Below the pieces are notes generated by a model. That model was not told the DNA's origin. It did not search any database and saw only the letters and a program-made list of their open reading frames with translations. Shown piece after piece: positions 26,693-41,617 of a stretch of DNA of 44,383 bases; position 1 is the stretch's first letter, and every line of letters starts with the position of its first letter. The stretch comes from Bacteroidota bacterium (GTDB lineage Bacteria > Bacteroidota > Bacteroidia > Chitinophagales > Chitinophagaceae), in NCBI GenBank assembly GCA_030706635.1, contig JAUZOD010000034.1, positions 1 to 44,383 of the forward strand, given 5' to 3'. Both the position numbers and the translations under genes were made by a program.

Positions 26693-26736
26693 CCCTGAAA
26701 TCCGGAGCCGTTGCTGAGAACGATCATTATTTCAGG

Positions 26737-26780
26737 TGATAACAGTCAGTCAAAGGACACCGTTGATTGGCATATCTTCG
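26737..26780 (+). promoter_or_regulatory. FNR-type operator and -7 box of ackA-xfp
   Basis: TGATAACAGTCA at 26737-26748 fits TGAY-N4-RTCA. A -7-like box TATCTTCG (Bacteroidota consensus TAnnTTTG, 5 of 6 fixed bases) lies at 26773-26780; centre-to-centre distance is 34 bp. This is the geometry expected when a Crp/Fnr dimer binds next to RNA polymerase and replaces the -33 contact. The acetate kinase ATG follows about 130 bp later. Confidence 0.6.
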
Positions 26781-26909
26781 AAACTTGTATTGCCTAAAAG
26801 CGTTTATCCACCCTATAAATCAACCTGACAGGTAATCCTAGGCATTTTAATTGAAGAGGTTCGCCCGAGGACGGATAACGCACGGTGATTTATCCCGTAA
26901 AGTATCGGA

Positions 26910-28091
26910 ATGGAAAATGAAGTCAGAAATATTCTCACAATCAATGGCGGCTCTTCCAGCATCAAGTTTTCACTGTATAGCATGAATGGAGATTTAAAGC
27001 AACAACTTAAGGGTTCCATTACCCGGATTGGTTTGCAGGGCGCGGGATTAACAGTGACACGTCAAAATAAGGAGTGTGAGCGACAGTCAGCTAAGGCCCG
27101 GAACATGCAGGATGGAGCGGGGTTCTTGATGGACTGGCTTAAAAAAGAAAACCATCATGGTCAGTTGACAGCCATCGGGCACAGGATCGTGCACGGGATG
27201 AATCACACAAAGGCTGAACTGGTTACACCGGCGTTACTTAATGAGCTGCATCAGACCAGCGACTATGATCCCGATCACCTTCCAGGTGAAGTGGAATTGA
27301 TAAAAGCCTTTGCCAGGCAGTATCCTCAGATCTCACAGGTAGCCTGTTTTGATACGGTTTTTCATTCCACGCTTCCGGAAGTAGCCAGATTATTACCGAT
27401 ACCCGGGCGGTTTCGCCGGGCAGGCATCCGCCGGTATGGTTTTCACGGATTGTCCTATAGCTACCTGATGGAAGATCTTGCAGCAAAAGATCCCGGCGCC
27501 GCAAAGGGGAAAATCATATTGGCCCATTTGGGCAACGGAGCCAGCATGGCCGCCGTGAGGGATGGGTTGAGCATGGATACGAGTATGGGCTTTACTCCGG
27601 CCGGAGGTTTTCTTATGGGCACCAGACCAGGTGATCTTGATCCGGGCGTGACAGCCTATATGATAAATAAAGAGTCGTTAACGGGCCGTCAGTTCAATCA
27701 TCTGATCAATCATCAAAGCGGCCTCCTGGGCATTTCAGAAACAAGCCCGGATATGCTGGACCTGCTGCGCAAACAAAACAGCGATCCAAGGGCTGTCGAG
27801 GCCGTTGGGCTGTTTTGTTACCAGGCAAAAAAATGGATCGGATCATTTACTGCAGTTTTGGGCGGGCTGAATACCCTGGTCTTTAGCGGAGGTATCGGAG
27901 AAAATGCAGCACCTGTGCGCTCCGGAATTTGTGAAGGACTAAAATTCATGGGAATTGAGCTGGATCCGGAGCAGAATGAAAAGAATGCCCGGGTAATATC
28001 GGCAAAGGGCAGTCCCGTGACTGTTTATGTTATTCCGACAGACGAAGAACTAATGATCGCAAAAACGGTTTGCCTTGTTTTATCCCTGTGA
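26910..28091 (+). CDS. ackA: Acetate kinase
   Basis: The product has 393 aa, full length for the family. It interconverts acetyl phosphate + ADP and acetate + ATP in the cytoplasm. ASKHA-fold motifs are present: NGGSSSIKFSLY at the N-terminus, GHRIVHG with the catalytic Arg (about 91), CFDTVFH with the catalytic Asp (about 149), AHLGNGASMAAVRDG, DTSMGFTPAGG, MGTRPGDLDPG with the second Arg, and FSGGIGENA near the end. It is followed after 24 bp by phosphoketolase, whose product acetyl phosphate is its substrate, so the two form an ATP-yielding unit. No phosphotransacetylase gene is adjacent. An FNR-type site lies upstream. Confidence 0.97.
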   Translation: MENEVRNILTINGGSSSIKFSLYSMNGDLKQQLKGSITRIGLQGAGLTVTRQNKECERQSAKARNMQDGAGFLMDWLKKENHHGQLTAIGHRIVHGMNHTKAELVTPALLNELHQTSDYDPDHLPGEVELIKAFARQYPQISQVACFDTVFHSTLPEVARLLPIPGRFRRAGIRRYGFHGLSYSYLMEDLAAKDPGAAKGKIILAHLGNGASMAAVRDGLSMDTSMGFTPAGGFLMGTRPGDLDPGVTAYMINKESLTGRQFNHLINHQSGLLGISETSPDMLDLLRKQNSDPRAVEAVGLFCYQAKKWIGSFTAVLGGLNTLVFSGGIGENAAPVRSGICEGLKFMGIELDPEQNEKNARVISAKGSPVTVYVIPTDEELMIAKTVCLVLSL

Positions 28092-28115
28092 AGGCAAGCG
28101 AATAAAACAAAATAT

Positions 28116-30509
28116 ATGCAAGTAACAGAAAGTGATTTGACAGGTTATACATCCTCACAGGAGCTGTTTCATAAAATAGATGCTTACTGGCGTGCAGCGA
28201 ACTATCTTTCCGTGGGCCAAATCTATCTCTACGATAATCCGCTCTTAAAGGAGCCGTTGAAACCGGAACATATCAAACACATGCTGCTCGGTCACTGGGG
28301 TACAACGCCCGGGCAGAACTTTATCTATGTTCATCTGAACAGGGTAATTAAAAAATACGACCTGAACATGGTCTATATTTCGGGGCCGGGGCATGGCGGC
28401 CCCGCCCTTGTTGGCAATACCTACCTGGAAGGTACTTACAGTGAAGTCTATCCGCACATCAGCCAGGATGAAGCCGGACTGAAAAAACTTTTCACGCAAT
28501 TCTCATTTCCCGGGGGCATTCCGAGTCATGTTTCTCCGGAATGTCCGGGATCTATTCATGAAGGCGGTGAGCTCGGCTATTCCCTGAGCCATGCATTCGG
28601 TGCGGTTTTCGATAACCCCGGTCTGCTGACTGCCTGTGTGGTGGGTGACGGCGAGGCTGAAACAGGACCCCTGGCCACCGCATGGCATTCCAATAAGTTC
28701 CTTAACCCCGCTACGGATGGCGCCGTGCTTCCCATACTGCATCTCAATGGATACAAAATAGCGAATCCGACTATTTTGGCAAGGATCAGCCATCAGGAAC
28801 TCGAACAATTATTCAACGGCTATGGATGGGCACCTTGGTTTGTGGAGGGAGATGATCACGCCCGGATGCACCTGAAAATGGCGGCAACACTCGATAAAGT
28901 AATTGAGAAAATAAAAAATATACGGGACGATGCGCGTCATCATGGCAATATCTCGCGACCCCTGTGGCCTATGATCGTTTTAAGAACGCCAAAAGGGTGG
29001 ACCGGCCCCAAAGAAGTGGATGGGCTGCCGGTGGAGGGCTCGTTCCGGTCGCACCAGGTGCCTTTATCAGACCCGGCTAAAAACCCGGAGCACCTGAAAC
29101 AGCTGGAAGCATGGATGAAGAGTTACAAGCCGGAAGAACTTTTTGACGATAAAGGAAAACTGGTGCAGTCGATAGCCGAACTCGCGCCAGCGGGCGAAAG
29201 CAGAATGGGCGCGAATCCGCACGCCAACGGAGGCCTTTTACTGAAGGAGCTTAAAATGCCGGATTTCAGGAATTATGGGGTGAAGGTGCCGAAACCCGGT
29301 GCTGTGGAAGCTGCCGATACGCTGGTATTGGGTGGATTTTTAAAAGACGTCATATTGTTAAATCAGGAGGAGAGAAATTTCAGGATTTTCGGCCCTGACG
29401 AAACGCTTTCAAACCGCCTGGATGCTGTATTTCAATCCACAAACCGGCAGTGGGAAGGGGGAATCGAAAAAAACGATCAATTTTTAGATATTGATGGCCG
29501 GGTAATGGAGGTATTGAGCGAGCATCAGTGTGAAGGATGGCTGGAAGGATATCTGCTAACCGGAAGGCACGGGTTATTCAACAGCTATGAGGCATTCATT
29601 CACATAGTGGACTCCATGTTCAACCAACACGCCAAATGGCTGAAGGTTACCTCATGCCTTCCCTGGCGCAGGAAGATAGCTTCTCTTAATTATCTTCTGG
29701 CATCTCATGTGTGGCGGCAGGATCATAACGGATTTACGCACCAGGATCCCGGATTTATTGATCACGTCGTAAACAAAAAAGCGGAGATCGTGCGGGTTTA
29801 TCTTCCTCCAGACGCCAATTGCCTGCTTTCCGTAATGGACCATTGCCTGCGCAGCAAGCACTATGTAAATGTTGTGATTGCAGGTAAACATCCGGCGCCG
29901 CAATGGCTTCAGATGGAAGAGGCAGTGGTCCATTGTACGAAAGGAATAGGTATCTGGACCTGGGCCAGCAATGATGAAGACCTGGAACCTGATGTGGTAA
30001 TGGTTTGTGCCGGTGATGTGCCGACACTGGAAACCCTGGCAGCGGTTTCCATTCTCCGGCATAAAATACCCGCTCTTAAAATACGCGTGGTCAATGTGGT
30101 TGACCTCATGAAGTTGCAGATGCATACCGAGCATCCGCACGGATTAAGCGATCCGGATTTTGACTTACTATTTACAAAAAACAAACCGGTAATCTTCGCT
30201 TTTCACGGATATCCGTGGCTGGTGCACCGCTTAACCTACAAGCGGACGAATCACAAAAACATTCACGTTCGCGGATACAAGGAAGAGGGAACGATCACCA
30301 CGCCTTTCGACATGACGGTGTTGAATGACCTGGACCGGTTTCATCTTGTGCAGGACGTGATTGAACGGCTGCCCGAATTGGGAGATACCTGCGCTTATCT
30401 GAAACAGGAAATGCAGGATAAGCTGATAGAACACAAACATTATATCCGGAAAAATGGCGAGGATATGCCGGAGATAAGGAACTGGAAATGGGATATTCCC
30501 TCGAAATAA
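28116..30509 (+). CDS. xfp: Phosphoketolase (xylulose-5-P/fructose-6-P)
   Basis: The product has 797 aa, as usual for the XFP family. It is a thiamine-diphosphate enzyme that splits xylulose 5-phosphate and/or fructose 6-phosphate with phosphate into acetyl phosphate plus an aldose phosphate. Visible motifs are [20 protein letters not shown] (about 87-106), [20 protein letters not shown], the ThDP-binding [19 protein letters not shown], then [12 protein letters not shown], and in the second half [11 protein letters not shown] and [14 protein letters not shown]. It is the second gene of the ackA-xfp operon and lets the cell make ATP from pentose or hexose phosphates without further oxidation, which fits low-oxygen or energy-limited conditions. 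Confidence 0.97.
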
Positions 30510-30701
30510 CTGGTATTGGGTCGCCCGATCGGCGCGGTAACTTCAATATCTTCGAAAACGAACCAGGTGCAACTTTCCCCGTTTCACAAAACGGAAATTC
30601 ACTTGCATCACAAATTCTGATAAATCCGGTATTCCCCTTTTTCATGTGAATTGTATGTTCAGGGAAATGTTGTATGTTCAGGAAAATGGCCGATAATCTT
30701 T

Positions 30702-30893
30702 TTAAGTTGTTTTAATGTTTCGACAACCTTTCGCGCCACAGCAACCGGTATCCGACAAGGCCATCCAGGTAATAAGCAGCCCTGCTAATCCCAGCGGCCA
30801 TTCTCTTGCAGTTACCGCTTCCCAGCAAAAATATAATCCGATCAATAGACGGATGATCCGCATAAAGTACCAACCCTTCAACATTCTTTTCAT
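30702..30893 (-). CDS. Small membrane protein, DUF2892/YgaP-like
   Basis: The product has 63 aa with two hydrophobic helices (MRIIRLLIGLYFCWEAVTA and PLGLAGLLITWMALSDT) and a cysteine-rich end (GCCGAKGC). This is the build of DUF2892/YgaP-type transmembrane proteins that accompany rhodanese domains. Its ATG overlaps the stop of the rhodanese gene by four bases (ATGA at 30890-30893), which indicates translational coupling. It is the last gene of the persulfide operon. A membrane role in sulfur handling is inferred from this context. A second in-frame ATG ten codons later is a possible start, but the overlap favours the first. Confidence 0.7.
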   Translation of the reverse strand: MKRMLKGWYFMRIIRLLIGLYFCWEAVTAREWPLGLAGLLITWMALSDTGCCGAKGCRNIKTT

Positions 30894-31210
30894 GACTTTA
30901 TTTTATACTTTCTTTTAAACAAATACCAGGAGCCGCCGTTATAGGCAACAAGTCCGTTGGCCGTTAAAACTGATTTTGCCATTCTGCTCCGCGAGCCGCT
31001 GCGGCACACCGTAATCAGGGGCCTATTTAGTTTCTTAAGGTATCCAATCTTCGTATTCAATTCATCAAGTGGTATATTTTCCGAACCTTTGATATGACCG
31101 CTTTTGTATTCCGGGGCTGAGCATACATCAATGATTATTGATCCTTCCCGGATCAAACGCGTAAAATCTGCTTTGGTTTTGCTGAATAATCTTGTGAACA
31201 GGCCGATCAT
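30890..31210 (-). CDS. Single-domain rhodanese-like sulfurtransferase
   Basis: The product has 106 aa and is one rhodanese domain: IIIDVCSAPEYKSGHIKGSE, NIPLDELNTKIGYL, then the active loop TVCRSGSRSR with Cys69, and the terminal AKSVLTANGLVAYNGGSW. It transfers sulfane sulfur via a Cys persulfide. The start ATG at 31210 is preceded by a long A-run in the mRNA, the usual Bacteroidota leader. It begins 16 bp after the stop of the persulfide dioxygenase-rhodanese gene and overlaps the DUF2892 gene, so the three are one operon handling reactive sulfur. Confidence 0.92.
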   Translation of the reverse strand: MIGLFTRLFSKTKADFTRLIREGSIIIDVCSAPEYKSGHIKGSENIPLDELNTKIGYLKKLNRPLITVCRSGSRSRMAKSVLTANGLVAYNGGSWYLFKRKYKIKS

Positions 31211-31226
31211 ATTATTTTTTTTTTTG

Positions 31227-32645
31227 TTAAAGCATGGTTGTGGGCCGGACGTATTCTGTTAACTTAAACATTCCGGATTCCTTCAAGGCTCTGAAACCGC
31301 CATTTATATTCACCAGATTAGTGTACCCCCTCGCCTTGAGAATTGAAATGAAAATGACGGACCGGTATCCTCCGGCGCAATGCACGTAATAAGTTTTATC
31401 CTTGTTCACTTCTTGCATATTTCCATTCAGATAATCCAGTGGCACATTTTCCGCGCCCGGCAGATGCTCACTCTGGTATTCACTATTCTTACGGACGTCC
31501 AACAGGTTGATTTTTGCGTTCTTCATCTCCTGAGCCAGGGCGTTTGGCGTGATACAAGTAATTTGATCTGTTTCCAAACCGGCTTTTTTCCAGGCTTCAA
31601 ATCCTCCCTTCAGATAACCGATACTGTAATCATAACCGACCCTGGCCAGCCGCGTAATCACTTCCTCCTCACGCCCCACTTCTGAAATGATCAAAATCTT
31701 CTGATTAATACCCGGAATCAGTGCGCCGGCCCAGGGAGCAAAATTTCCGTCAATGCCTATATTGATTGAATTCGGAATATATCCTTTGCAAAAGGTATCG
31801 GGATCCCTGGTATCCAGGATGAGTGCACCCGTTTCGTTCGCTGCAGCTTCAAACCCTGCCGGTTCCAATGCGTGTTTTCCCCTTTCCATCACTTTTTCTA
31901 TGCTTTCATACCCTTTAATATTCATCAGTACATTCAACGGGAAATAAGCCGGAGGCGGGGTTAATCCGGACAGAACTTGCTTTATAAATGCTTCTTTCGA
32001 TAAGGCGGATCGCAGGGCATAATTTGTCGCCTTCTGATGCCCAAGCGTGTCGGTTGTTTCACTGCTCATATTCTTACCGCATGCGCTTCCTGCACCATGT
32101 GCAGGGTAAATGATAATTTCATCCGCCAGGGGTAAAATCTTTTTTCGCAGGGAATCGAACAACAGGGCCGCCAGCATTTCCGGCGTCAGGTCAGCTTTCA
32201 CTTTTTGAGCCAGGTCTGGCCTGCCGACATCACCGATAAATAAGGTGTCGCCCGTAAATAAGGCGGTTTCTTTCCCTGATTCATCAATGAGCAAAAAGCA
32301 GGAGCTTTCCATAGTATGGCCCGGTGTATGCAATAACCGGATCCTTATCTTTCCCAGCGGGAATTCCTGTCCGTCAGTTGCAATGAGGGCCTCAAATCCG
32401 GGAACGGCGGTTGGGCCATAAATGATGACCGCACCGGTTTGTCTGGCCAGATCAAGGTGACCCGAAACAAAATCAGCATGAAAATGCGTTTCGAACACAT
32501 ATTTTATTTTCGCCTTGTCCCGTTCAGCCTTTTCGATATAGGGCTTTACTTCCCGCAATGGATCAATAATCGCAGCCTCGCCATCACTTTCGATGTAATA
32601 AGCGCCCTGAGCAAGACAACCGGTATATATTTGTTCCAGAAACAT
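31227..32645 (-). CDS. CstB-like persulfide dioxygenase fused to two rhodanese domains
   Basis: The frame is open up to 32789, but the ATG at 32645 (MFLEQIYTGCLAQGAYYIES) is the right start: it gives 472 aa, begins the metallo-beta-lactamase domain, and leaves an operator upstream. Residues 1-235 are an MBL fold with THFHADFVSGH, LLHTPGHTMES and FTGDTLFIGDVGRPDL. The D-F in place of D-H suits the mono-iron persulfide dioxygenase group. Residues about 262-360 are a rhodanese-like domain whose active loop (ISEVGREEEV) has no Cys. Residues about 370-465 are an active rhodanese with VHCAGGYRS, Cys423. The same three-part layout is known from CstB of staphylococci, which oxidises persulfides and produces thiosulfate. 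Confidence 0.9.
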   Translation of the reverse strand: MFLEQIYTGCLAQGAYYIESDGEAAIIDPLREVKPYIEKAERDKAKIKYVFETHFHADFVSGHLDLARQTGAVIIYGPTAVPGFEALIATDGQEFPLGKIRIRLLHTPGHTMESSCFLLIDESGKETALFTGDTLFIGDVGRPDLAQKVKADLTPEMLAALLFDSLRKKILPLADEIIIYPAHGAGSACGKNMSSETTDTLGHQKATNYALRSALSKEAFIKQVLSGLTPPPAYFPLNVLMNIKGYESIEKVMERGKHALEPAGFEAAANETGALILDTRDPDTFCKGYIPNSINIGIDGNFAPWAGALIPGINQKILIISEVGREEEVITRLARVGYDYSIGYLKGGFEAWKKAGLETDQITCITPNALAQEMKNAKINLLDVRKNSEYQSEHLPGAENVPLDYLNGNMQEVNKDKTYYVHCAGGYRSVIFISILKARGYTNLVNINGGFRALKESGMFKLTEYVRPTTML

Positions 32646-32664
32646 AATGTTGGGTTTCTGCCTG

Positions 32665-32707
32665 TAAAATTCGGTTTTCAGAATTGCTTTATTCGTGACT
32701 ATGATCA
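32665..32707 (-). promoter_or_regulatory. FNR-type operator and -7 box of the persulfide operon
   Basis: TGACTATGATCA at 32696-32707 fits TGAY-N4-RTCA and extends to GTGA...TCAC. On the minus strand a -7-like box GAATTTTA occupies 32665-32672, centre 33 bp from the operator centre. The box is a weak match (4 of 6 fixed bases), as expected for an activator-dependent promoter. The coding start is 20 bp further, at 32645. Confidence 0.6.
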
Positions 32708-32776
32708 CGCCGGTTCCTGACTTCCTGATCCTCCAAAAGATAAAGCATCTTAGCCCCCGGATGATCATCAATGATC

Positions 32777-32790
32777 TGTGATACGTCACA
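32777..32790. promoter_or_regulatory. Perfect 14-bp palindrome behind the Crp/Fnr gene
   Basis: TGTGATACGTCACA is a perfect palindrome lying between the end of the Crp/Fnr gene (stop 32799) and the persulfide operon. Its half-site TGTGA is CRP-like, but the spacing between TGA and TCA is 4 rather than the 6 of true CRP/FNR sites. It may be an operator of another dimeric protein or chance. Confidence 0.35.
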
Positions 32791-32798
32791 AATTCCGG

Positions 32799-33440
32799 TT
32801 AATCCATATCCAGGCTGACGATCTCTATTTGCTGACCTTTTAGCAAACGAATATTCCCATTTTCGGCAAGCTTCTTCATTAACCGGGAAATGACTTCCCT
32901 CGAGGAGTTGAGTTCCTGCGCAATTTCAGTATTGCTGATGGCAAGTATATTCGTATTTAAAGTCCTCTGCTGCCGTTTCAGGTAGAAAAGTAGTCGCTCA
33001 TCCATGTTCCGGAATGCGATATGATCAATGGTGGATAACAGATCCTCAAAGCGGCTACGGTACGACCCCAGCACATAATAATACCAGGATTTGTATTTAG
33101 TAATCCATTTGTCCATGTATTCCAACGGGATAGCAAGTATCGTCGTATCCGTTACGGCTTTGCCCATAAGCTGACTTGCCTGTTGACGGATTGCACAGAT
33201 CATGGAAAGCGCACAGGCCTGACCAGGCTGCAGGTAATAAATAAAATATTCATTTCCTTCCTCATCTTCGCGGTAGACTTTCACTAATCCTTTGATCACC
33301 AGCATGGTGGACCGAAAATACTGGCCGGTCTTCATAAGCTGTTCACCGGCTCTTATCTCCTTTATTTGAGCATGCTCAGTGATGTCTTTCACCAGATCTG
33401 ATTCAAATTCGGGAAACAGCTGATGAATGAACTCTTCCAT
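32799..33440 (-). CDS. Crp/Fnr-family regulator with FNR-type recognition helix
   Basis: The product has 213 aa. The N-terminal cyclic-nucleotide-type beta-roll covers about 10-115 (GEQLMKTGQYFRSTMLVIKG, FIYYLQPGQACALSMIC), followed by a long dimer helix and a winged helix (about 145-207). The recognition helix reads NSSREVISRLMKKL: Glu182, Ser185 and Arg186 correspond to the E-x-x-S-R of E. coli FNR that reads the TGAT half-site; CRP has E-x-x-G-R. There is no N-terminal four-cysteine iron-sulfur motif. Cys76 and Cys82 are the only cysteines, a possible thiol switch. It lies directly upstream of the persulfide operon, and six TGAY-N4-RTCA sites in this island make it the likely regulator, which is inference. 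Confidence 0.92.
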   Translation of the reverse strand: MEEFIHQLFPEFESDLVKDITEHAQIKEIRAGEQLMKTGQYFRSTMLVIKGLVKVYREDEEGNEYFIYYLQPGQACALSMICAIRQQASQLMGKAVTDTTILAIPLEYMDKWITKYKSWYYYVLGSYRSRFEDLLSTIDHIAFRNMDERLLFYLKRQQRTLNTNILAISNTEIAQELNSSREVISRLMKKLAENGNIRLLKGQQIEIVSLDMD

Positions 33441-33553
33441 ACGAACGATTTAAAGCGAAGTTACAGATACCATATGCCGCAATTGCTTACCATAAACCGG
33501 CTGTAGCGAATGATTCCGGGCGGGGCGTAAAATAAATTTTCTCCTTTTCCAAC

Positions 33554-34567
33554 TCATGCAACACGGATTCTCTTCATATACCCATTCATTAGCTGAAGAT
33601 ATTTATCTGTTTCAACCAATGCCGATCTTCTATCCTGATCATTAGTGGCCGAGCGAGCCCGTAAGCTATTGACTTTTGCCCTGACATTTGCACGATAGCC
33701 TTTGTAATAAGTAAAAAGATCAAAACCCTGCTTGCCCTGCATGCACGGAAACAGCAGATTGTAGGTATTGATGAATAACCCGGAAAATTCAGGGCTCCCG
33801 AATGCCTCAAGATCCATGCATAGAAATGCAACTTCATTTAGCACATCGATCCGCCGGTAGTCGTCATTAAATTCTATGCAGTCAAAAGGCTCCGGTTCCG
33901 GTAAGAAGAATATATTCCTGGAATGCAGATCGCCATGACCATCACGGAAAAAGCCGGCATTCAATCTCTCATGCAAAAAATCCTTATTCCGAACCACAAA
34001 GACGTCAGAACCATCAATTGATTCTTGCATAACAGCCGCATAAGACGCACCCAGCTGGTTGCTTACGTACTCTTTTTGTTTCATCAAATCCCGGAAATCA
34101 TCCATTATTCTAAGGGGATCCGTATCGTAAATGATATCCGTTCTTTTATGAAAATCAGCGATGACTTTTGCCAGATTACAAATATCTGTTCGCGTTATTT
34201 TATTTTCTGATAACAAGATATCCATTTGCCTGCTTCTGTCGATTCTTTTCATCCTGACCGCATAGTCAATGATTTTCCCTGTCTGACTGTTTATAGACAG
34301 ATGCCCCGAATCCTCCCATATAGCTGCCACATCGAGATACAGGTCTGATGTCAGCCGCCGGTTTAATTCAATCTCTCTCTCACAATAATATTTTCTTTTT
34401 TCAATGGTTGAAAAGTCAATAAATGAATAGTGAACCGGCCTTTTTATTTTATATACGAATTGTTCGCCAATCAACACCCAGGAAATATGTGTCTCCACCA
34501 GATCCGGCCGCCCCTTGCAGGGAAACTGACCTTCTGATATCAGTTTATTGATTTGCTCTTTTGTCAT
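33554..34567 (-). CDS. APH-fold kinase, Rv2004c-type N-terminal half
   Basis: The product has 337 aa, an aminoglycoside-phosphotransferase-like (protein-kinase fold) enzyme. Visible are FVYKIKRPVHYSF with the ATP-binding Lys (about 40), EREIELNRRL, the catalytic loop DGHGDLHSRNIFF with Asp/His/Asn (about 207-219), and FDCIEFNDDYRRIDVL carrying the metal-binding Asp. In many bacteria, including mycobacterial Rv2004c, this domain (COG2187) and a P-loop kinase domain (COG0645) are fused in one protein. Here they are two genes overlapping by 23 bp with the P-loop gene first. The substrate is unknown. It belongs to the operon that begins with the universal stress protein at 36029. Confidence 0.85.
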   Translation of the reverse strand: MTKEQINKLISEGQFPCKGRPDLVETHISWVLIGEQFVYKIKRPVHYSFIDFSTIEKRKYYCEREIELNRRLTSDLYLDVAAIWEDSGHLSINSQTGKIIDYAVRMKRIDRSRQMDILLSENKITRTDICNLAKVIADFHKRTDIIYDTDPLRIMDDFRDLMKQKEYVSNQLGASYAAVMQESIDGSDVFVVRNKDFLHERLNAGFFRDGHGDLHSRNIFFLPEPEPFDCIEFNDDYRRIDVLNEVAFLCMDLEAFGSPEFSGLFINTYNLLFPCMQGKQGFDLFTYYKGYRANVRAKVNSLRARSATNDQDRRSALVETDKYLQLMNGYMKRIRVA

Positions 34568-35057
34568 TATGCAAATGCAGGTATGATGCAGCTTTATTTA
34601 GCATGTCACTAATATTGTTGTCAGTTGATTCAAGGGTTAAATGCCTTTCCTCCATTGGCTCCCATTCCGTTTTAATCTTTTGGTACACCTCAAAATCCGC
34701 ATCACTGTCAGCTCTTATTTGAGCCAGTCTTCTCCTTATGACTGGTTCTGCGGCCCAAATTTCAATAAAGAATATTTCATTCTGACGCCCGGCTTCATCA
34801 ACAAACTGTCTCCTGATATCATTTCTGTAGAAAGTCGCATCACAAACCAGATTTTTGCCTTGCCTGACATGCTCCCTCATTTCCATTAACATTTTTGAAT
34901 AGACTAAAAGCTTTTCCTTCTCCGAATAAATCGTTTCGGTGAATAAGCTCTTCCTCAGCTGGTCACTGCCTATATAATCGGCTCTTAGCCTGTCTGCAAG
35001 ATGATGAGCAAAATAACTTTTACCCGAACCCGGTAATCCAAATACGATAACAATCAT
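34545..35057 (-). CDS. P-loop (AAA/Zeta-toxin-like) small kinase
   Basis: The product has 170 aa, with Walker A GLPGSGKS at residues 7-14, a nucleoside-kinase-like DYIGSDQLRKSLF, the Walker B-like segment NLVCDATFYRND and the lid region RRRLAQIRADSD. It resembles the COG0645 domain that is normally fused behind the APH-fold domain. Its last 23 bp overlap the start of the APH-like gene in another frame, so translation is probably coupled and the proteins likely work together. It is 87 bp downstream of the universal stress protein gene. The substrate is unknown. Confidence 0.85.
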   Translation of the reverse strand: MIVIVFGLPGSGKSYFAHHLADRLRADYIGSDQLRKSLFTETIYSEKEKLLVYSKMLMEMREHVRQGKNLVCDATFYRNDIRRQFVDEAGRQNEIFFIEIWAAEPVIRRRLAQIRADSDADFEVYQKIKTEWEPMEERHLTLESTDNNISDMLNKAASYLHLHNDKRANQ

Positions 35058-35144
35058 AAAAAACCAGGTTTTTAAGCGCGGCCCGGAATCAATGCGGCAT
35101 TGTGCATCAAAGTCGCAGGGAAAAGCGTGTCAATTTTAACAATT

Positions 35145-36029
35145 CTACGTATGGGCGCTCTCTGCGGAATCCCGGGAGGTCGCCTGGGAAAATTCCTTTG
35201 ATGACTTGCTGGAATGAATGGCCAAAATAGGAATCTCCTGATGAAGAATAATTTCTTTAGAATGTTTTTTGTCAAATAATCCTAAAAAGCCATGATGCCT
35301 GGGAGCGACCATTAACAAATCCAGATTATGCTCCTTTGCATATTCATTCAATTTCTCCGCCAGGTTATCGCCGGTCAAATATTCAAAGCTGGGATGAAAC
35401 TTATGCAGATGGCTTTGCAACGATATTGCCTCGCCAATTTCTGAAGCTTTTTGAACCTTACGATTCCTGTTTACATGAATGATCTGCAGGGTTGATTTAA
35501 ATTCAGATACCCATTCACTGACTAATTTAAAGGGAATTGTCCCGGTGACGTCCTCAAGATCAGCGGCAAGCCCGATTTTATCTATGGGCCTGAAGCTGGC
35601 CTTTTCAGGAATAATTAATATTGGATTGGAAATTTTCTTAATGGCATAAAAAGTATTGCTTCCCATCAAAAATCTTGCAATGGGCTTACCTTCGGCAATA
35701 CCCATCACAATGGCAAATGGGCTGTATTTATCTGAAATCTGATCTATTTTATCGGCAAAGCTTCCCATTAGCGCTTCCGTCGAGATCTCAATCTTTCCTT
35801 TTGTTCTCAGGATCAGTTTATCCTTAAGCGCATCAAGTTCCCTGACGGCCCCGGTAAGCATATCTTCCAAATTTGCTTCAGGAACGGGAATTTCTGAAAT
35901 AGCTATAGGAACCGGCACTGCATTAAAAAGGATCAATTTTCCATTCATGGCTTTTGCCATATCAGCGGCATAATTCACAGCATTTACTGATGGCTGGGAA
36001 AAATCGGTGGCTGCAATGAGTGTTTTCAT
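35145..36029 (-). CDS. Universal stress protein with two USP domains
   Basis: The product has 294 aa with tandem USP domains. The first spans about 1-145: MKTLIAATDFSQPSVNAVNY, then VMGIAEGKPIARFLMGSN with a near-canonical G-x2-G-x9-G-S ATP loop. The second spans about 150-278: KIGLAADLEDVTG, and LLMVAPRHHGFLGLFDKKHS, where the nucleotide loop is altered. Such cytoplasmic proteins bind ATP or other adenine nucleotides and accumulate under starvation or hypoxia. It is probably the first gene of an operon with the two kinases downstream. The upstream region carries two tandem FNR-type sites (36146-36157 and 36163-36174). Confidence 0.93.
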   Translation of the reverse strand: MKTLIAATDFSQPSVNAVNYAADMAKAMNGKLILFNAVPVPIAISEIPVPEANLEDMLTGAVRELDALKDKLILRTKGKIEISTEALMGSFADKIDQISDKYSPFAIVMGIAEGKPIARFLMGSNTFYAIKKISNPILIIPEKASFRPIDKIGLAADLEDVTGTIPFKLVSEWVSEFKSTLQIIHVNRNRKVQKASEIGEAISLQSHLHKFHPSFEYLTGDNLAEKLNEYAKEHNLDLLMVAPRHHGFLGLFDKKHSKEIILHQEIPILAIHSSKSSKEFSQATSRDSAESAHT

Positions 36030-36114
36030 AATGAAAATTTTAAAGAAATGGTTATCGCTTCGTTACCATTTTATATAACACATGACTGTTTTGAAATCAA
36101 TTAACTTCCCTCAC

Positions 36115-36174
36115 CAAAATTCGGGTTTTAAAGGGGAAATTAATATGACGCTCATCAGGATCTGACCTGAGTCA
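36115..36174 (-). promoter_or_regulatory. Tandem FNR-type operators and -7 box of the USP-kinase operon
   Basis: TGACGCTCATCA (36146-36157) and TGACCTGAGTCA (36163-36174) both fit TGAY-N4-RTCA, with centres 17 bp apart. The first lies 33 bp, centre to centre, from the minus-strand -7 box GAATTTTG at 36115-36122 (5 of 6 fixed bases). The coding start is at 36029. Confidence 0.65.
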
Positions 36175-36261
36175 TCTCACTAGTGCAGTAACAATATAAT
36201 TATGCAACCACGTGTGGGCTAAAAACGCGCGGAACTACTTCAACGGGCAACTAAACCCATG

Positions 36262-36888
36262 CTATTTTAGAATTCCCCGTTTCGCCATATCAGCGACAAT
36301 TATCTCTCCATATTCATCGGCAAGACGCTCTGCCGACCTGGGATCAAAAGACTCTGTTTGGGCAGAATAAAGTAATTCCTTGTAATCCATCTCATAAAAA
36401 TTACTCTCCCAAAAATATTTTGTAAGCTCTGCATAATAGCCCGGTTCATAGATGCGATCGTACACTGAACTGTAATAGCCCCAGAAACGCCGTTGAAACA
36501 GAACATCCGGGGATTCTGACATCCTGTCGGTATTATAATAGACTTCGCTCTTCCTATCCAGCATAACTATTGTAATAATTCCGTCCACGCCGCTTTCATA
36601 CAATTTTCTTAATACGATAGCCTCTGTCAGGCCTTCAAAAGAATTTGGACCATATTCTTTAATTGAAGAAATAGCGTTATAACCCTTCTCTCTAAGATCA
36701 TCCACCAGGTGATTTTCCATTTTTTCCCTCAGAGCCTGGTCCGTGTCCCGCAAAAGGCCGACAACCAGTATTTTGTCGTACTTTTTTAATGGAAGGTTAG
36801 GTGATTGCCAGGAATGTATAATTCTGGATGTTGAGCAGCCGCTTAAAAGGAGGAATGAAAAGGCTGTTACCAGCTGTCTAACTTTCAT
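36262..36888 (-). CDS. Unknown lipoprotein, 208 aa
   Basis: The frame is open from 36963, but the ATG at 36888 starts a clear lipoprotein signal (MKVRQLVTAFSFLLLSGCST, lipobox LSGC) and leaves room for the FNR-type promoter at 36905-36947. The mature protein has an alpha/beta look with KILVVGLLRDTDQALREKME, then HLVDDLREKGYNAISSIKEY, and GVDGIITIVMLDRKSEVYY. This resembles the fold of CsgG/LpoB-like periplasmic lipoproteins that have a VxxLxxxxxxRxxxE start. It has no assigned family in my reading. The promoter architecture ties it to the stress island. Confidence 0.75.
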   Translation of the reverse strand: MKVRQLVTAFSFLLLSGCSTSRIIHSWQSPNLPLKKYDKILVVGLLRDTDQALREKMENHLVDDLREKGYNAISSIKEYGPNSFEGLTEAIVLRKLYESGVDGIITIVMLDRKSEVYYNTDRMSESPDVLFQRRFWGYYSSVYDRIYEPGYYAELTKYFWESNFYEMDYKELLYSAQTESFDPRSAERLADEYGEIIVADMAKRGILK

Positions 36889-36904
36889 AGCGCAATATTT
36901 TAAT

Positions 36905-36947
36905 GAAAGATAAATGATCAGGCCTGTTCCCGCTATGATAGCAATCA
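36905..36947 (-). promoter_or_regulatory. FNR-type operator and -7 box of the lipoprotein gene
   Basis: TGATAGCAATCA (36936-36947) fits TGAY-N4-RTCA. The minus-strand box TATCTTTC (36905-36912) matches TAnnTTTG at 5 of 6 fixed bases, and the centre distance is 33 bp. A transcription start near 36898 would leave a leader of only about 10 bases before the ATG at 36888. Confidence 0.65.
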
Positions 36948-37143
36948 GGGCTCCGGGGAACAATCGTCATATCGCTCCCCGACCTCGTATTAAGCTGTGT
37001 GGCAAGTAAGAAATACAAAGAGCCGGATAGAAATCCAGCCCGATTTTTGTTCCAATATCCTATGAAAAACCAGAACAAAAATAATATCCTGATTCAAAAG
37101 AGAAAATGATGTGAATCAATGACGACCCTGATTTTTACCGGCG

Positions 37144-38178
37144 CTACCGGGCAGTCGTCACCTGTTTTCCTTCCTGCTTCTTTTTGCTTTCGATCTTTCG
37201 AAAGTAGCCACGAAATAAGAAATTATGCTTTAAAGCCTCCATATTCTGATTAAATCCATCTGTTCCTTTCTGAACATTATCCAGGCTTTCATTTAATTTA
37301 ATCACCATTCCCGAGTCCTTTAATAATGCGTTTACGATGCCAGAACCATGATTCACGTCAGACTGAATGCCCGTTACCAAATGGCTGAGTTGAAGAGAGA
37401 GTGTATCGGCATGATCGCTTACCGTTTCTATTTTAGTAACAGCCATGTTCAGGTTGTATGCGAAGGCGGTGTCAGTAAGTATTGCGCCTAATGAACCGCC
37501 CCCATTTTTTACATTGCTGACAATGGCATACAGATCGTTGACGATACTATTTGCTTTTGCAGTGGCCAGGCGGATATGGTAAGCAGAGAGTTGAAGATTA
37601 TGGGGAAGGGCTTTATCATTTAGTATATTCCATAAGGCCGTACTATTATTAAGACGGCTAACGGTCGTTTTAAGATTTTCCGCAATAAAGGCGACATCGT
37701 TGTTTGTTCTGGAAAGGGTCCTGAGCATGTCGTCCGTGTCCAACGGCTTTTTTGACCTAAGCACATCACCGTCCTCCGCGAGAGCCGAGGCCTGCTTTGC
37801 CGAAGTTATGTTCACCACCTTGTTTCCTACAAGTCCATCTGTTGCTATGGAAGCAATGGCATTTTTACGTATGATGGTCTTTGCTTTATCGCCAATAGTC
37901 ATTATGACCTCCGTCACCGTATCGTTAATCAAATTGATTCGTTTCACGGTACCCACATCAATACCGGCATAGCGCACATTGTTTCCGGCTTTCAATCCCT
38001 GCACATTCTCAAATTCGACTTTCAATATAAAGTTGGATCCAAAGAGATTGCGGTTTCTGCCAATCATATATAAAATCAGAATCAGGAAAATCAATCCGGC
38101 CAGGACAAATATCCCTAACTTAATATTGTTTGCATTTTGCTTTATCATGATATCCTGTTCATTTGAATCATCATTCAA
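37144..38178 (-). CDS. mlaD: MlaD-type substrate-binding protein of a lipid ABC transporter
   Basis: The product has 344 aa. A single transmembrane helix (IKLGIFVLAGLIFLILILYM, about 19-38) is followed by one MCE/MlaD domain (about 48-125; FENVQGLKAGNNVRYAGIDV, then GTVKRINL and IATDGLVGNKVVNI) and a long helical C-terminal region. MlaD hexamers sit in the inner membrane with MlaE and MlaF and carry phospholipids between membranes. The start overlaps the stop of the MlaF gene by 8 bp; a second ATG at 38148 (MIKQNANNIKLG) is a possible alternative start. It is the last gene of the mlaEFD operon. No mlaA, mlaB or mlaC gene is adjacent. Confidence 0.93.
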   Translation of the reverse strand: MNDDSNEQDIMIKQNANNIKLGIFVLAGLIFLILILYMIGRNRNLFGSNFILKVEFENVQGLKAGNNVRYAGIDVGTVKRINLINDTVTEVIMTIGDKAKTIIRKNAIASIATDGLVGNKVVNITSAKQASALAEDGDVLRSKKPLDTDDMLRTLSRTNNDVAFIAENLKTTVSRLNNSTALWNILNDKALPHNLQLSAYHIRLATAKANSIVNDLYAIVSNVKNGGGSLGAILTDTAFAYNLNMAVTKIETVSDHADTLSLQLSHLVTGIQSDVNHGSGIVNALLKDSGMVIKLNESLDNVQKGTDGFNQNMEALKHNFLFRGYFRKIESKKKQEGKQVTTAR

Positions 38179-38947
38179 AAAACTGTTTCACTTTTGGATC
38201 CTGATTGTTAGTCAGCTCTTCATAATTGCCGTTCGCATAACAAATTCCATCCAGTAATACAACAATCCGGTCGCTGGCCATTCGCACACAATTCATATCG
38301 TGAGATATGATCAGGGATGAGGTATTATATTTTTTTTTTATTTCTACCATCAATCTGATGATCTCGCGCCCGGTAACCGGGTCCAGGCCGGTGGTAGGCT
38401 CATCATACAAAATGATCTCCGGCTTTAATATCAGCGTGCGGGCAAGAGCAATCCGCTTGCGCATACCACCGGAAAGCTCCTCAGGCATCATGTCAATGGT
38501 ATGTATCAATCCAACGTCGTTCAGCGCGTTCGTTACCATTGCATCCACCTCCTGCTGCGAGACTTTTATCCAATGTCTGCGCAAAGGAAATTCAAGATTT
38601 TGCCTTACGGTCATTGAATCATATAAGGCATTGCTCTGAAAAAGGAAACCGATTTTTGTTCTTATTTTGTCCAATTCCTCGTCATTCAAATCCGGGATAT
38701 TTTCACCAAAAACCTTAATCGTTCCTTCATCGGCTCTGAGCAGTCCGATAATGCATTTAATCAGAACTGATTTTCCAGAACCGGATTTGCCTAATACCAC
38801 CATATTCTCGCCCTTAAATAATTCAAGATTAAAGTCGGTCAATACATGATTATCTTCAAATGATTTGTACAGATGACATATACTCATCACTGGGGCGCCC
38901 TGGTTTTCTGTGTGTTCCTTAAATAGTATTGATTCCGCTGTTGCCAT
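38171..38947 (-). CDS. mlaF: MlaF-type ABC transporter ATP-binding protein
   Basis: The product has 258 aa with all ABC motifs: Walker A GKSGSGKS (about 53-60), Q-loop FLFQSNAL, signature LSGGMRKRIALART (the LSGGM variant typical of Mla/Ttg2 proteins), Walker B IILYDEPTTGLDP and switch His in ISHDMN. It powers phospholipid transfer by the MlaE permease. It lies 11 bp after the mlaE stop and overlaps the next gene, mlaD, so the three are translationally tight. Confidence 0.95.
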   Translation of the reverse strand: MATAESILFKEHTENQGAPVMSICHLYKSFEDNHVLTDFNLELFKGENMVVLGKSGSGKSVLIKCIIGLLRADEGTIKVFGENIPDLNDEELDKIRTKIGFLFQSNALYDSMTVRQNLEFPLRRHWIKVSQQEVDAMVTNALNDVGLIHTIDMMPEELSGGMRKRIALARTLILKPEIILYDEPTTGLDPVTGREIIRLMVEIKKKYNTSSLIISHDMNCVRMASDRIVVLLDGICYANGNYEELTNNQDPKVKQFFE

Positions 38948-38958
38948 TTTTACTTAAT

Positions 38959-39729
38959 TCAATAAAAACCAAGCAGGTCGGTGATTTGCACTGCCAGTAA
39001 ATCAAGCACGAAAATGATTATGGAAGAGACCACTACAGCGGAGTTTGCACTGCGGCCCACGCCCTCTGTTCCTTTGCGGCTGTTGTAACCTTTGTAACAA
39101 CCAATGATGCCGACTGCAAATCCAAAGAAAAATGTTTTCACAAACGCGGGGAGCACATCATAAAACGCCAGGTTGTCAAATACCTGGGTCCAGAATAAAT
39201 TAAAGCTGGTATCACCGCGTATGTTTACTCCGAGGTAACACCCATATAGTGCAATTGCATCACTTAACATAACCAGTACCGGCAACATACAGGTGGCCGC
39301 AAATACCCTGGTAACCACCAGGTATTTAAAGGGATTCGTACCACTTACCTCCATGGCGTCTATCTGTTCGGTTACGCGCATCGAACCCAGTTCGGCCCCA
39401 ATGCTTGATCCGATTTTCCCCGCAAATATCAGTGCTGTAATTACGGGTCCTATTTCCCTGATCAGGGCAATGCTGACAATGGCAGGCAATTGAGACTCTA
39501 CCCCATAGTCTACCATGGAAGGACGTAACTGCATGGTGAGGACCAAACCCATGATAAATCCGGTTAACCCCACCAGGGGTAAGGATTTATAACCGATAAT
39601 AAAACACTGGCGAAAGAATTCGGCTACTTCATAACGGGGCTTAAACCAATGTGAAAGAAAACGGCCTGTAAAGCGGGAAATATCACCCGCTTCATTCAAA
39701 GCGGCATTTAAGGAAGATATCTGTTTCAT
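38959..39729 (-). CDS. mlaE: MlaE-type lipid ABC transporter permease
   Basis: The product has 256 aa with five or six transmembrane helices. MlaE-family marks are visible: LVGLTGFIMGLVLTMQL, then LIREIGPVITALIFAGKIGS, IGAELGSMRVTEQIDAMEV and the C-terminal GIIGCYKGYNSRKGTEGVG. It is an inner-membrane permease and the first gene of the operon. Its promoter region is shared with a divergent universal stress protein gene and has an FNR-type site for each direction. Confidence 0.95.
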   Translation of the reverse strand: MKQISSLNAALNEAGDISRFTGRFLSHWFKPRYEVAEFFRQCFIIGYKSLPLVGLTGFIMGLVLTMQLRPSMVDYGVESQLPAIVSIALIREIGPVITALIFAGKIGSSIGAELGSMRVTEQIDAMEVSGTNPFKYLVVTRVFAATCMLPVLVMLSDAIALYGCYLGVNIRGDTSFNLFWTQVFDNLAFYDVLPAFVKTFFFGFAVGIIGCYKGYNSRKGTEGVGRSANSAVVVSSIIIFVLDLLAVQITDLLGFY

Positions 39730-39798
39730 TGCAAATAATTAACCCGTACGATCTTAGACCGACGGCCGGGGATATTTAACCCCATCTTCTTCTCCGGT

Positions 39799-39841
39799 CA
39801 AAATTTCTCATTTTATCCAATAAAGAATATGACGATCATCA
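39799..39841 (-). promoter_or_regulatory. FNR-type operator and -7 box of mlaEFD
   Basis: TGACGATCATCA (39830-39841) fits TGAY-N4-RTCA and is nearly identical to the site at 36146, including the AATA before it. On the minus strand the box AAATTTTG (39799-39806) matches 5 of 6 fixed bases of TAnnTTTG; centre distance is 33 bp. The mlaE ATG is at 39729, giving a leader of about 60 bases. Confidence 0.6.
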
Positions 39842-39851
39842 TCCATTGATT

Positions 39852-39894
39852 TGATATCGGTCATTGCAATGGTCAGCCGGCTGAAATAGGTTTG
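39852..39894 (+). promoter_or_regulatory. FNR-type operator and -7 box of the USP pair
   Basis: TGATATCGGTCA (39852-39863) fits TGAY-N4-RTCA and is preceded by T, as in the FNR half-site TTGAT. The box TAGGTTTG (39887-39894) is a full match to the Bacteroidota -7 element; centre distance is 33 bp. Two perfect 10-bp palindromes, CATTGCAATG (39862-39871) and CAGCCGGCTG (39874-39883), lie between them. Transcription would start near 39901, only a few bases before the ATG at 39907. Confidence 0.7.
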
Positions 39895-39906
39895 TACTAA
39901 AAATGT

Positions 39907-40731
39907 ATGAAAAAGATACTGTTGGCGTTTGACGGAACGAATTTTTCAGTTGGCGCTTTTGAGTTCGCACGGAGAATGAATGAAGTGAGCCCTATATTAC
40001 TAACGGGCATATTCCTTCCTCAGGCCGAATATGCCAATTTATGGAACTATGGCGATGCCATGGTCGGTCCGCTCCTCGTTCCGGTCGTTGAAAGTAGCGA
40101 GGAGGAAAAAATGGAAAAGAATAAGACAAGATTCAGGAAGCTTTGCCAGGACGAAGGCATTGATTACAGGGTGCACGAAGACAGTTTCGATTTTGCCCTG
40201 CCGGAGTTGAAAAAAGAGACCCGCTTTGCGGATTTGCTGATCATCGGCAGCGAGTCGTTTTATGAAAATATGGGAATAAAAGAACCGAATGAATATTTAG
40301 AGGACGGCTTGCACGGAGTGGAGTGTCCGGTTCTGGTGGTCCCCGAAAAGTTTGACTATCCCATGACGAATATACTTTCCTACGACGGCAGCGAATCATC
40401 TGTTTACGCCATCAAGCAATTTACCTACCTGTTTCCGGAGATGTCGCAAAATCCGACACTATTGGTTTATGTAAATAAGAAAACAGATGGCGAAATTCCG
40501 CAGGAGGTGAATATAGAAGAACTGACTGCAAGACATTTTGCTGATCTCACCGTGACAAAGATTGATAGCGGCTCTGCGAAATACTTCAGCGCCTGGATGA
40601 GTGAGAAGAAAAGCGCTATACTAATAAGCGGTTCCTTCGGCCGTTCACTATTTTCACGGATCTTCAGAAAAAGTTTCATTTCCGGTGTGATAAGAGATCA
40701 CCAATTGCCCGTCTTTATTGCCCATAAGTAA
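39907..40731 (+). CDS. Universal stress protein, tandem domain (first of a pair)
   Basis: The product has 274 aa and starts MKKILLAFDGTNFSVGAFEF. The first USP domain (about 1-145) has DLLIIGSESFYENMG in place of the ATP loop and ends CPVLVVPEKF. The second (about 148-274) has SYDGSESSVYAIKQF and ISGSFGRSLFSRIFRKSF, with the G-x2-G loop partly kept (SGSFGRS). It is 46 bp upstream of a paralogue with the same architecture, and they are probably co-transcribed from the promoter at 39852-39894. The long insert after strand 2 (EYANLWNYGDAMVGPL) is shared in position with the paralogue. Confidence 0.93.
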   Translation: MKKILLAFDGTNFSVGAFEFARRMNEVSPILLTGIFLPQAEYANLWNYGDAMVGPLLVPVVESSEEEKMEKNKTRFRKLCQDEGIDYRVHEDSFDFALPELKKETRFADLLIIGSESFYENMGIKEPNEYLEDGLHGVECPVLVVPEKFDYPMTNILSYDGSESSVYAIKQFTYLFPEMSQNPTLLVYVNKKTDGEIPQEVNIEELTARHFADLTVTKIDSGSAKYFSAWMSEKKSAILISGSFGRSLFSRIFRKSFISGVIRDHQLPVFIAHK

Positions 40732-40777
40732 AATACGCAGGCTATAACGCGTTAATAAGTCCATTCAAATATTCGGA

Positions 40778-41617
40778 ATGAAAAAAATCTTAGTCGCAAT
40801 TGATGGCTTAAAAATAAATCCAAAGACCCTGGATTTTGCGTGTCATATGGGAAGCCTCACCAGGTCGAAACTTACCGCGGTCTTTCTCGAGAATCTGGTT
40901 GCAGAAAACAGGTTGCTTGTAAAAGAGGGTTACGATGCCACATACCTGAACTGGGGAGTGGATGAAAATGCTCCGGAGCATCAGGCAAAAATGGAATTGA
41001 TCCGGAAAAACATCAATGTATTTAAAGATTATTGCGTAAAAAGAGAAATTCAATACGATGTTCTTTGCGAAGAAGGAACACCTGCAAAGGAAATAATCCG
41101 GCAAAGCCGTTTTGCTGATCTGTTGATAGCAGATGCTGAAATATGCTTTAATGAAAAGTTTAAAGGCGGGACGACCCACTTTGAAAGAGAAATATTGAAG
41201 AAAGCGGAATGCCCTGTTATCATTGCACCTGAAAGTTTTGACCGTATTAATGAGATTATATTTTGCTATGATGGCAGCCGCTCTGCTATTTATTCCATGA
41301 AACAATTCGATTATATCTTTCCCGAATTACGGCGGGCCAAAGTCATTTTAATTGAGGTAAGCAAGGGAATCAACGCTGTCGTTACGGAAATTGAAAAAGC
41401 AAAAGAATGGCTTTGCCGGCGTTACCATAATATTAAAGTTGAAATCCTGCATGGGACGCCAAAGGATGAATTATTTCAATATCTTCTGCAAAGGAAAAAT
41501 GCCATTTTCGTTATGGGAGCTTATGGCCGAAGCAGCTTCTCCCGGTTATTCAAAAGAAGTGCTGCAGAAAAAGTACTAAAAACAACCAATCTTCCGGTAT
41601 TTATTGCTCATCCTTAA
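40778..41617 (+). CDS. Universal stress protein, tandem domain (second of a pair)
   Basis: The product has 279 aa and is a paralogue of the preceding gene: MKKILVAIDGLKINPKTLDF, DLLIADAEICFNEKF, CPVIIAPESFDRINEIIF and the C-terminal ATP-type loop VMGAYGRSSFSRLFKRSAAE, closer to the canonical G-x2-G-x9 pattern than its neighbour. Both end in LPVFIAH, so they arose by duplication. Its TAA stop overlaps the stop of the convergent phosphorylase-like gene on the palindrome TTAA (41614-41617). Confidence 0.93.
   Translation: MKKILVAIDGLKINPKTLDFACHMGSLTRSKLTAVFLENLVAENRLLVKEGYDATYLNWGVDENAPEHQAKMELIRKNINVFKDYCVKREIQYDVLCEEGTPAKEIIRQSRFADLLIADAEICFNEKFKGGTTHFEREILKKAECPVIIAPESFDRINEIIFCYDGSRSAIYSMKQFDYIFPELRRAKVILIEVSKGINAVVTEIEKAKEWLCRRYHNIKVEILHGTPKDELFQYLLQRKNAIFVMGAYGRSSFSRLFKRSAAEKVLKTTNLPVFIAHP

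Follow-up and report, generated by a model that had tools for sequence, protein, structure and literature searches.

What reads the TGAY-N4-RTCA palindromes that stand before several stress and metabolic genes on one contig of a Bacteroidota bacterium (Chitinophagaceae), and what does their constant distance from the promoter box mean? The window analyzed here is the whole of contig JAUZOD010000034.1 (44,383 nucleotides, our C91) of assembly GCA_030706635.1, a genome of 4.58 Mb (our G000). A sequence-only reading of this DNA had proposed a single FNR-type regulon, in which an activator binds at a fixed spacing from six promoters. The evidence points to two regulons that share class II promoter geometry, an explanation to which a probability of about 0.65 is assigned. 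In class A, a local Crp/Fnr regulator would act on the operon of a putative persulfide dioxygenase (PDO). In class B, a low-oxygen or respiratory-stress set of genes would be controlled through a protein in which a receiver domain is fused to a Crp-type regulator (REC-CRP). The palindromes are thereby predicted to be operators of Crp/Fnr-fold activators, centered at -41.5 next to the sigma-A -7 box. On this reading, the single FNR regulon gives way to two regulons with a shared geometry.

Spacing between operator and promoter box

All seven TGAY-N4-RTCA sites of the sequence-only reading are present where it had placed them. The window holds 15 copies of this pattern, against a mean of 3.53 and a maximum of 9 over 100 dinucleotide shuffles, and the genome-wide count of 502 would give about 4.9 for DNA of this size. 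Long genes contain seven of these copies, and the other eight stand at promoter-like positions; sites 32696 and 36936 fall within the longest possible open reading frame (ORF), yet upstream of the start codon judged to be real. Promoter boxes were taken as TAnnTTTG-like and scored out of 6, with at least 5/6 counted as a good match, and distances were measured from site center to box center. A good box at exactly 33 bp, in the correct orientation, accompanies five of the eight promoter-like sites (36146, 36936, 37107 and 39830 on the minus strand, 39852 on the plus strand), while no in-gene site has one at 32-34 bp. Site 37107, whose box scores 6/6, had been overlooked earlier. The spacings originally proposed for six promoters are correct, at 33 bp for 32696, 36146, 36936, 39830 and 39852 and at 34 bp for 26737.

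The fixed distance stands out against several backgrounds. In the window and contig C92 of the same genome taken together, a good box lies at exactly 33 bp from 13 of 32 sites, with at most two sites at each other distance between 15 and 51 bp, although part of the C92 score is due to selection because this contig was chosen for its three exact composites of site and box. For comparison, 360 kb of other DNA from the genome (18 stretches picked by hand) holds 35 sites, none of which has a box at 33 bp (Fisher p 1.4e-5). A scan of the genome for site-N(8-38)-TAnnTTTG gave 17 matches, six of them at gap 23, which corresponds to 33 bp, and no match for the reversed-pattern control. The background comparison and the genome scan with spacing both favor the claim that the pairing is hard to explain by chance. 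Among 58 genomes, which are relatives and hence not independent, gap 23 holds 172 of 693 matches, compared with 22.4 expected were all 31 gaps equal, in a variable-gap search that may swap one overlapping match for another (one case was met, in G013). The gap-23 composite occurs at least once in 45 of the 58 genomes.

The spacing is also conserved beside orthologues of the Crp/Fnr regulator encoded in the window. Orthologue loci were named in 80 cases, with the regulator gene retained by ORF calling in 77 (L021, L054 and L061 were left out); Flavitalea sp. BT771 and Chitinophaga japonensis encode such an orthologue. In the majority of the 80 loci, two genes come next after the regulator, an ORF of about 270 aa and an MBL-rhodanese gene, each with sites just ahead of it. 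In the stretch that opens 60 bp ahead of the regulator gene end and runs to 3.5 kb past it, 66 of the 77 loci hold 144 sites and the other 11 hold none. A good box at exactly 33 bp accompanies 101 of these 144 sites and the best of 26 other distances reaches 4, a result to be read as conservation and not as 144 independent trials, since the loci share ancestry and include near copies. A chance pairing of a frequent palindrome with an AT-rich box might be expected from the abundance of the pattern across the genome and the degeneracy of the boxes. It is hardly credible in view of the empty background stretches, the conservation beside orthologues and the excess at gap 23 across the 58 genomes.

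Two operator classes

A matrix was built from 128 sites of relatives beside Crp/Fnr orthologues, with the present genome left out and a cut-off of 9. These training sites define class A, a single operator GTGAY-N4-RTCAC; 95% of them carry G at -1 and 80% carry C at +12. The site of the PDO promoter, GTGATCATAGTCAC, scores 31.0, sites 36146, 36936, 37107 and 39852 score 10.5-15.4, and 39830 and 26737 remain below 9; it is this spread that led to a division into two classes. The base at +12 is T at five USP (universal stress protein), lipoprotein and mla sites and G at 26737. Class B mostly reads TGAY-N4-RTCAT; set beside the FNR consensus TTGAT-N4-ATCAA, its promoters have the TGAY-N4-RTCA core, T after the site in 58 of 77 cases and a mixed left flank.

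The two classes also differ in arrangement. Comparing all distinct promoters with a good box at 33 bp among the retrieved loci that were used, a second site (at least 7/8) lies exactly 22 bp upstream in 35 of 77 class B promoters (not GC-flanked) versus 2 of 105 class A promoters (GC-flanked; Fisher p 9e-14), the two sets having been collected differently, class A mostly from orthologue loci and class B mostly from composite-pattern loci. Some of the 77 have a left G and are perhaps class A, which would dilute the contrast. Partner offsets of 12-45 bp other than 22 never exceed two in either class. Across the 58 genomes, 294 site pairs are spaced by 1-30; in 151 of them the spacer is 10, equivalent to the 22-bp tandem, and such tandem pairs were found in 38 genomes. 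Within the window, 39830 and 39852 form an exact pair, 26737 has a degenerate partner TGAGAACGATCA (7/8) at 26715-26726, exactly 22 bp upstream, and the best candidate at the dioxygenase site matches 4/8. Between 36146 and 36174, two complete sites are spaced by 17 bp rather than 22.

Two results speak against a single FNR regulon. The PDO promoter differs from the others in its operator, has no tandem partner and appears to have a local regulator of its own, and sites with T at +12 are kept before hemN, cbb3, ric and USP genes even where the genome has no orthologue of that regulator. In these orthologue-free genomes, class B sites with boxes at 33 bp precede hemN-like genes (G004, G011, G023), ccoNO (G011), a ric-like gene (G005) and USP genes (G033, G004). 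The hemN-like genes encode a Radical_SAM domain, and one of the two scanned also matches HemN_C weakly; in G004 and G011 their aligned starts lie 41 and 50 bp downstream of the first site base. The cbb3-type ccoNO fusion of G011 has COX1 and FixO domains; the ric-like copy of the present genome has ScdA_N and Hemerythrin. A USP site in G029 is followed by G, not T, and further class B composites in orthologue-free genomes precede genes without an obvious link.

It could still be supposed that the regulator at 32799-33440 controls every site, sulfide or low-oxygen stress inducing PDO and stress genes jointly. Its gene lies inside the cluster, its orthologues keep adjoining class II sites, the TGA core is common to both classes and the enrichment at gap 23 is strongest in orthologue-bearing genomes (84/243 matches in 17 genomes, compared with 54/196 in 16 that have a paralogue only and 34/254 in 25 that have neither). 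This explanation is nevertheless improbable, as flanks and tandem structure differ between the classes, class B sites stand at similar genes where the orthologue is absent, and 69 of the 151 tandem pairs come from the 41 genomes without it. The PDO-linked regulator was also rejected as the sole cause of the spacing, which genomes without it show too.

Both classes seem to do without a conventional upstream promoter element. The usual -33 element is TTTG, 19 nt from the box, and at this distance TTTG was found in just two of the 77 class B promoters and in none of the 105 of class A, in agreement with the earlier claim that it is dispensable. An activator bound directly upstream of the -7 box would substitute for it. 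In a study on Flavobacterium psychrophilum, TAnnTTTG is placed at -12 to -5 (PMC9723704); if this figure transfers, a site 33 bp from the box center would be centered at -41.5, which is the class II position. To that extent, as a Crp/Fnr-type protein acting with a fixed, probably class II, geometry, the activator that had been postulated is supported. At 39830/39852, a single tandem pair could drive the divergent mlaEFD and USP promoters, each site being at -41.5 for one and at -63.5 for the other.

Candidate regulators

For class A, local control of the PDO operon by the protein encoded at 32799-33440 is well supported by sequence comparison, because the class A pattern adjoins orthologues of this protein and its residues R181, E182 and R186 are conserved. 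In the present genome, GTGAY-N4-RTCAC-N23-ANNTTT has two matches, the PDO promoter and one on contig C1. Among the 17 orthologue-bearing genomes, 29 of 45 matches lie within 5 kb of an orthologue; the other 41 genomes have 22 matches. Cys76 is present in 77 of 77 orthologues and Cys82 in 75, R181, E182 and R186 in all 77 and S185 in 72. We take R181, E182 and R186 to correspond to the CRP residues that contact GTGA. The MBL-rhodanese product is presumably of PDO type, a name that comes from the sequence-only reading.

The regulator belongs to the Crp/Fnr superfamily, with cNMP_binding and Crp-type helix-turn-helix domains above Pfam cut-offs, but the label FNR does not fit it. FNR holds its [4Fe-4S] cluster by four cysteines, three of them N-terminal, whereas Cys76 and Cys82 are the only cysteines among the 213 residues of this protein and none is N-terminal, a set that excludes it as FNR. 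FNR recognizes DNA through E209, S212 and R213, with a residue other than arginine at 208. The window regulator has E182, S185 and R186, but R181 occupies the 208 position, presumably as in CRP, and class A operators fail the FNR consensus TTGAT-N4-ATCAA. A probably thiol-based Crp/Fnr protein would be the one to bind one GTGAY-N4-RTCAC site and fire the sulfide operon from it. The gene context and the cysteine pair suggest that Cys76 and Cys82 could provide a persulfide or redox switch. A structure model gave a Crp-type fold, weakest around the two cysteines (block means 68 and 61), and we place the C-A-L-S-M-I-C stretch in the general region of the phosphate-binding cassette, which in CRP carries the residues that bind cAMP. 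The second class A site of the genome (L197 15238; G000:C1:143238) has a box at 33 bp and a 1-Cys-type peroxiredoxin gene about 0.4 kb downstream of it; a C-x5-C paralogue of the window regulator is found about 7 kb from it.

For class B, whose predicted targets in the window are the USP genes, mlaEFD and the lipoprotein gene, the likeliest reader is REC-CRP paired with a PAS kinase, judging from genomic association. Of 95 class B composites, 18 lie no more than 15 kb from a full-length REC-CRP gene (52 such genes in all), where 0.7 would be expected if they were scattered. An exact 22-bp tandem pair stands within 350 bp upstream in 11 of the 20 REC-CRP loci retrieved, and the 36 genomes with REC-CRP contain 132 tandem pairs compared with 19 in the 22 others. 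REC-CRP has Response_reg (104.8 bits) and Crp/Fnr domains above Pfam cut-offs, and its gene adjoins a kinase gene on contig C155; the receiver domain and the neighboring HisKA-type kinase identify it as a two-component response regulator. The kinase comprises PAS, HisKA and HATPase_c domains, and the nearest PDB entries to its PAS domain are the heme oxygen sensors DosP and FixL. FixL-type heme-PAS domains have an axial heme His and a distal Arg. By alignment only, the ligand-position His is present in 9 of 9 distinct kinases (13 rows) and the Arg in 8 of 9, and we consider this His to be aligned with the heme ligand position of DosP. The kinase would sense low oxygen or another respiratory block, and a REC-CRP dimer at -41.5 would activate transcription, often with a second dimer at -63.5. 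The pairing of proteins with sites, the phosphorylation and the signals are what we infer from the observed sites, spacing, tandem geometry, conservation and association.

Around the kinase gene, locus L162 (G000:C155, 1-11887) encodes, besides REC-CRP and the PAS kinase, proteins of ric-like, hemN-like and nitrous oxide reductase-like kinds. TGAY-N4-RTCA occurs there four times, and this small contig looks like a cluster for low oxygen and N2O reduction.

Several observations weigh against the two-regulon explanation. In the window, the box of 26737 is at 34 instead of 33 bp, that of 32696 matches 4/6, no box at 33 bp was found for 36163, and the -22 partners of 36146, 36936 and 37107 reach 6/8 only. 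The tandem pair is missing in 9 of 20 REC-CRP loci, and where it is present the nearer site has a good box at 33 bp in just 1 of 11. The REC-CRP gene of the present genome, which follows the kinase gene, lacks a site in the 350 bp before it, and on C155 none of the four sites has a good box at 33 bp, that of hemN being at 32. Class B composites also occur in 9 of 22 genomes without full-length REC-CRP, so that another protein must read the sites there, presumably a Crp/Fnr protein such as the type encoded on C123. As to the kinase, the heme reading is alignment-based, an equivalent PAS His is also present in 10jx and the Arg is absent in one of the nine kinases. Finally, the 33-bp enrichment extends to genomes that lack both the PDO-linked regulator and its paralogue, and the geometry is therefore general rather than the mark of any single regulator.

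Class B sites might instead be read by another stand-alone Crp/Fnr protein, for example the C123 protein (recognition helix T-A-R-E-N-V-V-R), REC-CRP being just a neighbor or a target. The C123 gene has an adjoining TGAY-N4-RTCA site (L157 6318), G052 and G045 combine stand-alone proteins and class B sites without a full-length REC-CRP, and the box at 33 bp is mostly missing in REC-CRP promoters. This alternative is considered rather unlikely, given that tandem pairs lie directly upstream of REC-CRP in over half of the loci and are concentrated in the genomes that encode it. Upstream of REC-CRP in L165, L172 and L177, a TAGTATT/TATTATT-like stretch lies about 33-34 bp from the nearer site and is maybe a variant box.

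Sites of this pattern were also met elsewhere. A second stress island (L010-L012, G000:C92) has 17 sites in 43.8 kb, with genes for USPs, P-type ATPases, HSP20, a COX1-type oxidase and alcohol dehydrogenases, several of them named by eye, and at C92:43266 a site at a stand-alone receiver gene that follows a PAS kinase. In G015 and G018 (L129-L143), sites with boxes at 33 bp are also found before genes for uncharacterized membrane or secreted proteins and before an ADP-forming acyl-CoA synthetase-like gene, as judged by eye, and class B control may therefore reach beyond respiration.

Relation to known systems and features of the window

The dyad TGA-N6-TCA core is shared with FNR and Anr; a study on the Pseudomonas Anr regulon gives the motif TTGATNNNNATCAA and predicted members including hemN, ccoN, ackA and adhA (PMC6588701), a set that the targets discussed here resemble. 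The present systems differ in that no four-cysteine Fe-S FNR is implicated, the class B regulator is likely a fusion of receiver and Crp that has a partner kinase, tandem sites are exactly 22 bp apart, and the promoter has the Bacteroidota -7 box, not a -10 box. At class II promoters of Escherichia coli, CRP occupies a site at -41.5 with a GTGA half-site, contacted by R-E..R of the recognition helix. The predicted position, class A half-site and R-E..R are alike here, but the TAnnTTTG promoter and the Cys76-x5-Cys82 pair in the sensory domain are not. FixL-FixJ-FixK is an oxygen-sensing cascade, which the PAS kinase recalls by its nearest relatives among heme PAS proteins and its place beside a Crp-type regulator near denitrification-type genes; here, however, receiver and Crp are fused in one protein, without separate FixJ and FixK. 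The closest solved sequence to the window regulator is 3dv8, a Crp/Fnr protein of Eubacterium rectale (E 1.9e-15; rank 3 in a fold search), which shares C-x5-C and is titled merely a putative regulator. We take its source to belong to a different phylum, and the C-x5-C motif may thus extend beyond Bacteroidota.

CstR, SqrR/BigR and FisR are persulfide sensors of other protein families that control genes of persulfide or sulfide oxidation, some of them by a cysteine pair. We know of no persulfide sensor within the Crp/Fnr family, and to our knowledge little has been mapped of how activators are placed at Bacteroidota promoters. In a literature search mostly outside subscription journals, no paper among the matches listed was recognized as describing either system. 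A more far-reaching, tentative proposal is that phosphorylated REC-CRP, driven by a FixL-like heme-PAS kinase, might take the place of FNR in Chitinophagaceae and their relatives, through tandem operators at exactly -41.5 and -63.5, of which a single pair could serve two divergent promoters. In this proposal, the other Crp/Fnr protein, which carries C-x5-C, would be the first persulfide sensor of its superfamily and run the sulfide operon on the same geometry. The exact 33-bp and 22-bp rules, found in 45 and 38 of 58 genomes, let such regulons be read from sequence, and they open direct tests of low-oxygen sensing in these Bacteroidota and of persulfide sensing by a Crp/Fnr protein.

Table 1. 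Predicted operators and genes of the window, in order of position
Feature	Position	Strand	Remarks
Operator upstream of ackA-xfp	26737..26748	+	Flanks g..g, not TCAT type; box TATCTTCG 5/6, only at 34 bp
Acetate kinase gene ackA	26910..28091	+	Pfam Acetate_kinase
Phosphoketolase gene xfp	28116..30509	+	Pfam XFP_N, XFP, XFP_C
MBL-fold and rhodanese protein gene	31227..32645	-	Start ATG at 32645, set by comparison with relatives
Class A operator GTGATCATAGTCAC	32696..32707	-	Box GAATTTTA 4/6 at 33 bp; -22 partner absent (4/8)
Crp/Fnr regulator gene, 213 aa	32799..33440	-	Cys76-x5-Cys82; recognition helix S-R-E-V-I-S-R; proposed class A reader
USP gene	35145..36029	-	Profile search
Class B site	36146..36157	-	Box GAATTTTG 5/6 at 33 bp; -22 partner 6/8
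Additional site	36163..36174	.	17 bp from 36146 site; 5/6 box at 32 bp in plus orientation, away from USP gene
Lipoprotein-like gene, 208 aa	36262..36888	-	ATG at 36888
Site before lipoprotein gene	36936..36947	-	Box TATCTTTC 5/6 at 33 bp; leader would be about 12 nt
Class B site	37107..37118	-	Box TATTTTTG 6/6 at 33 bp
mlaD, ABC ATPase mlaF, mlaE	37144..39729	-	Pfam MlaD, ABC_tran, MlaE
Tandem site for mlaE	39830..39841	-	Box AAATTTTG 5/6 at 33 bp; predicted -63.5 partner of divergent promoter
Tandem site for USP pair	39852..39863	+	Box TAGGTTTG 6/6 at 33 bp; exactly 22 bp from 39830
Two USP-like genes	39907..41617	+	First 21.9 bits (just under Pfam cut-off of 24); second 44.1 bits

Two members of the set call for comment. 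The ackA-xfp promoter is the weakest and only possibly belongs to the class B regulon. Site 37107 is probably the main lipoprotein promoter, judging from relative G015, whose 58%-identical lipoprotein has an identical layout; for the longer lipoprotein ORF at 36262-36963, no Pfam match was found. The nearest named relatives of the window regulator are from Chitinophagaceae metagenome-assembled genomes, at 79-80% protein identity.

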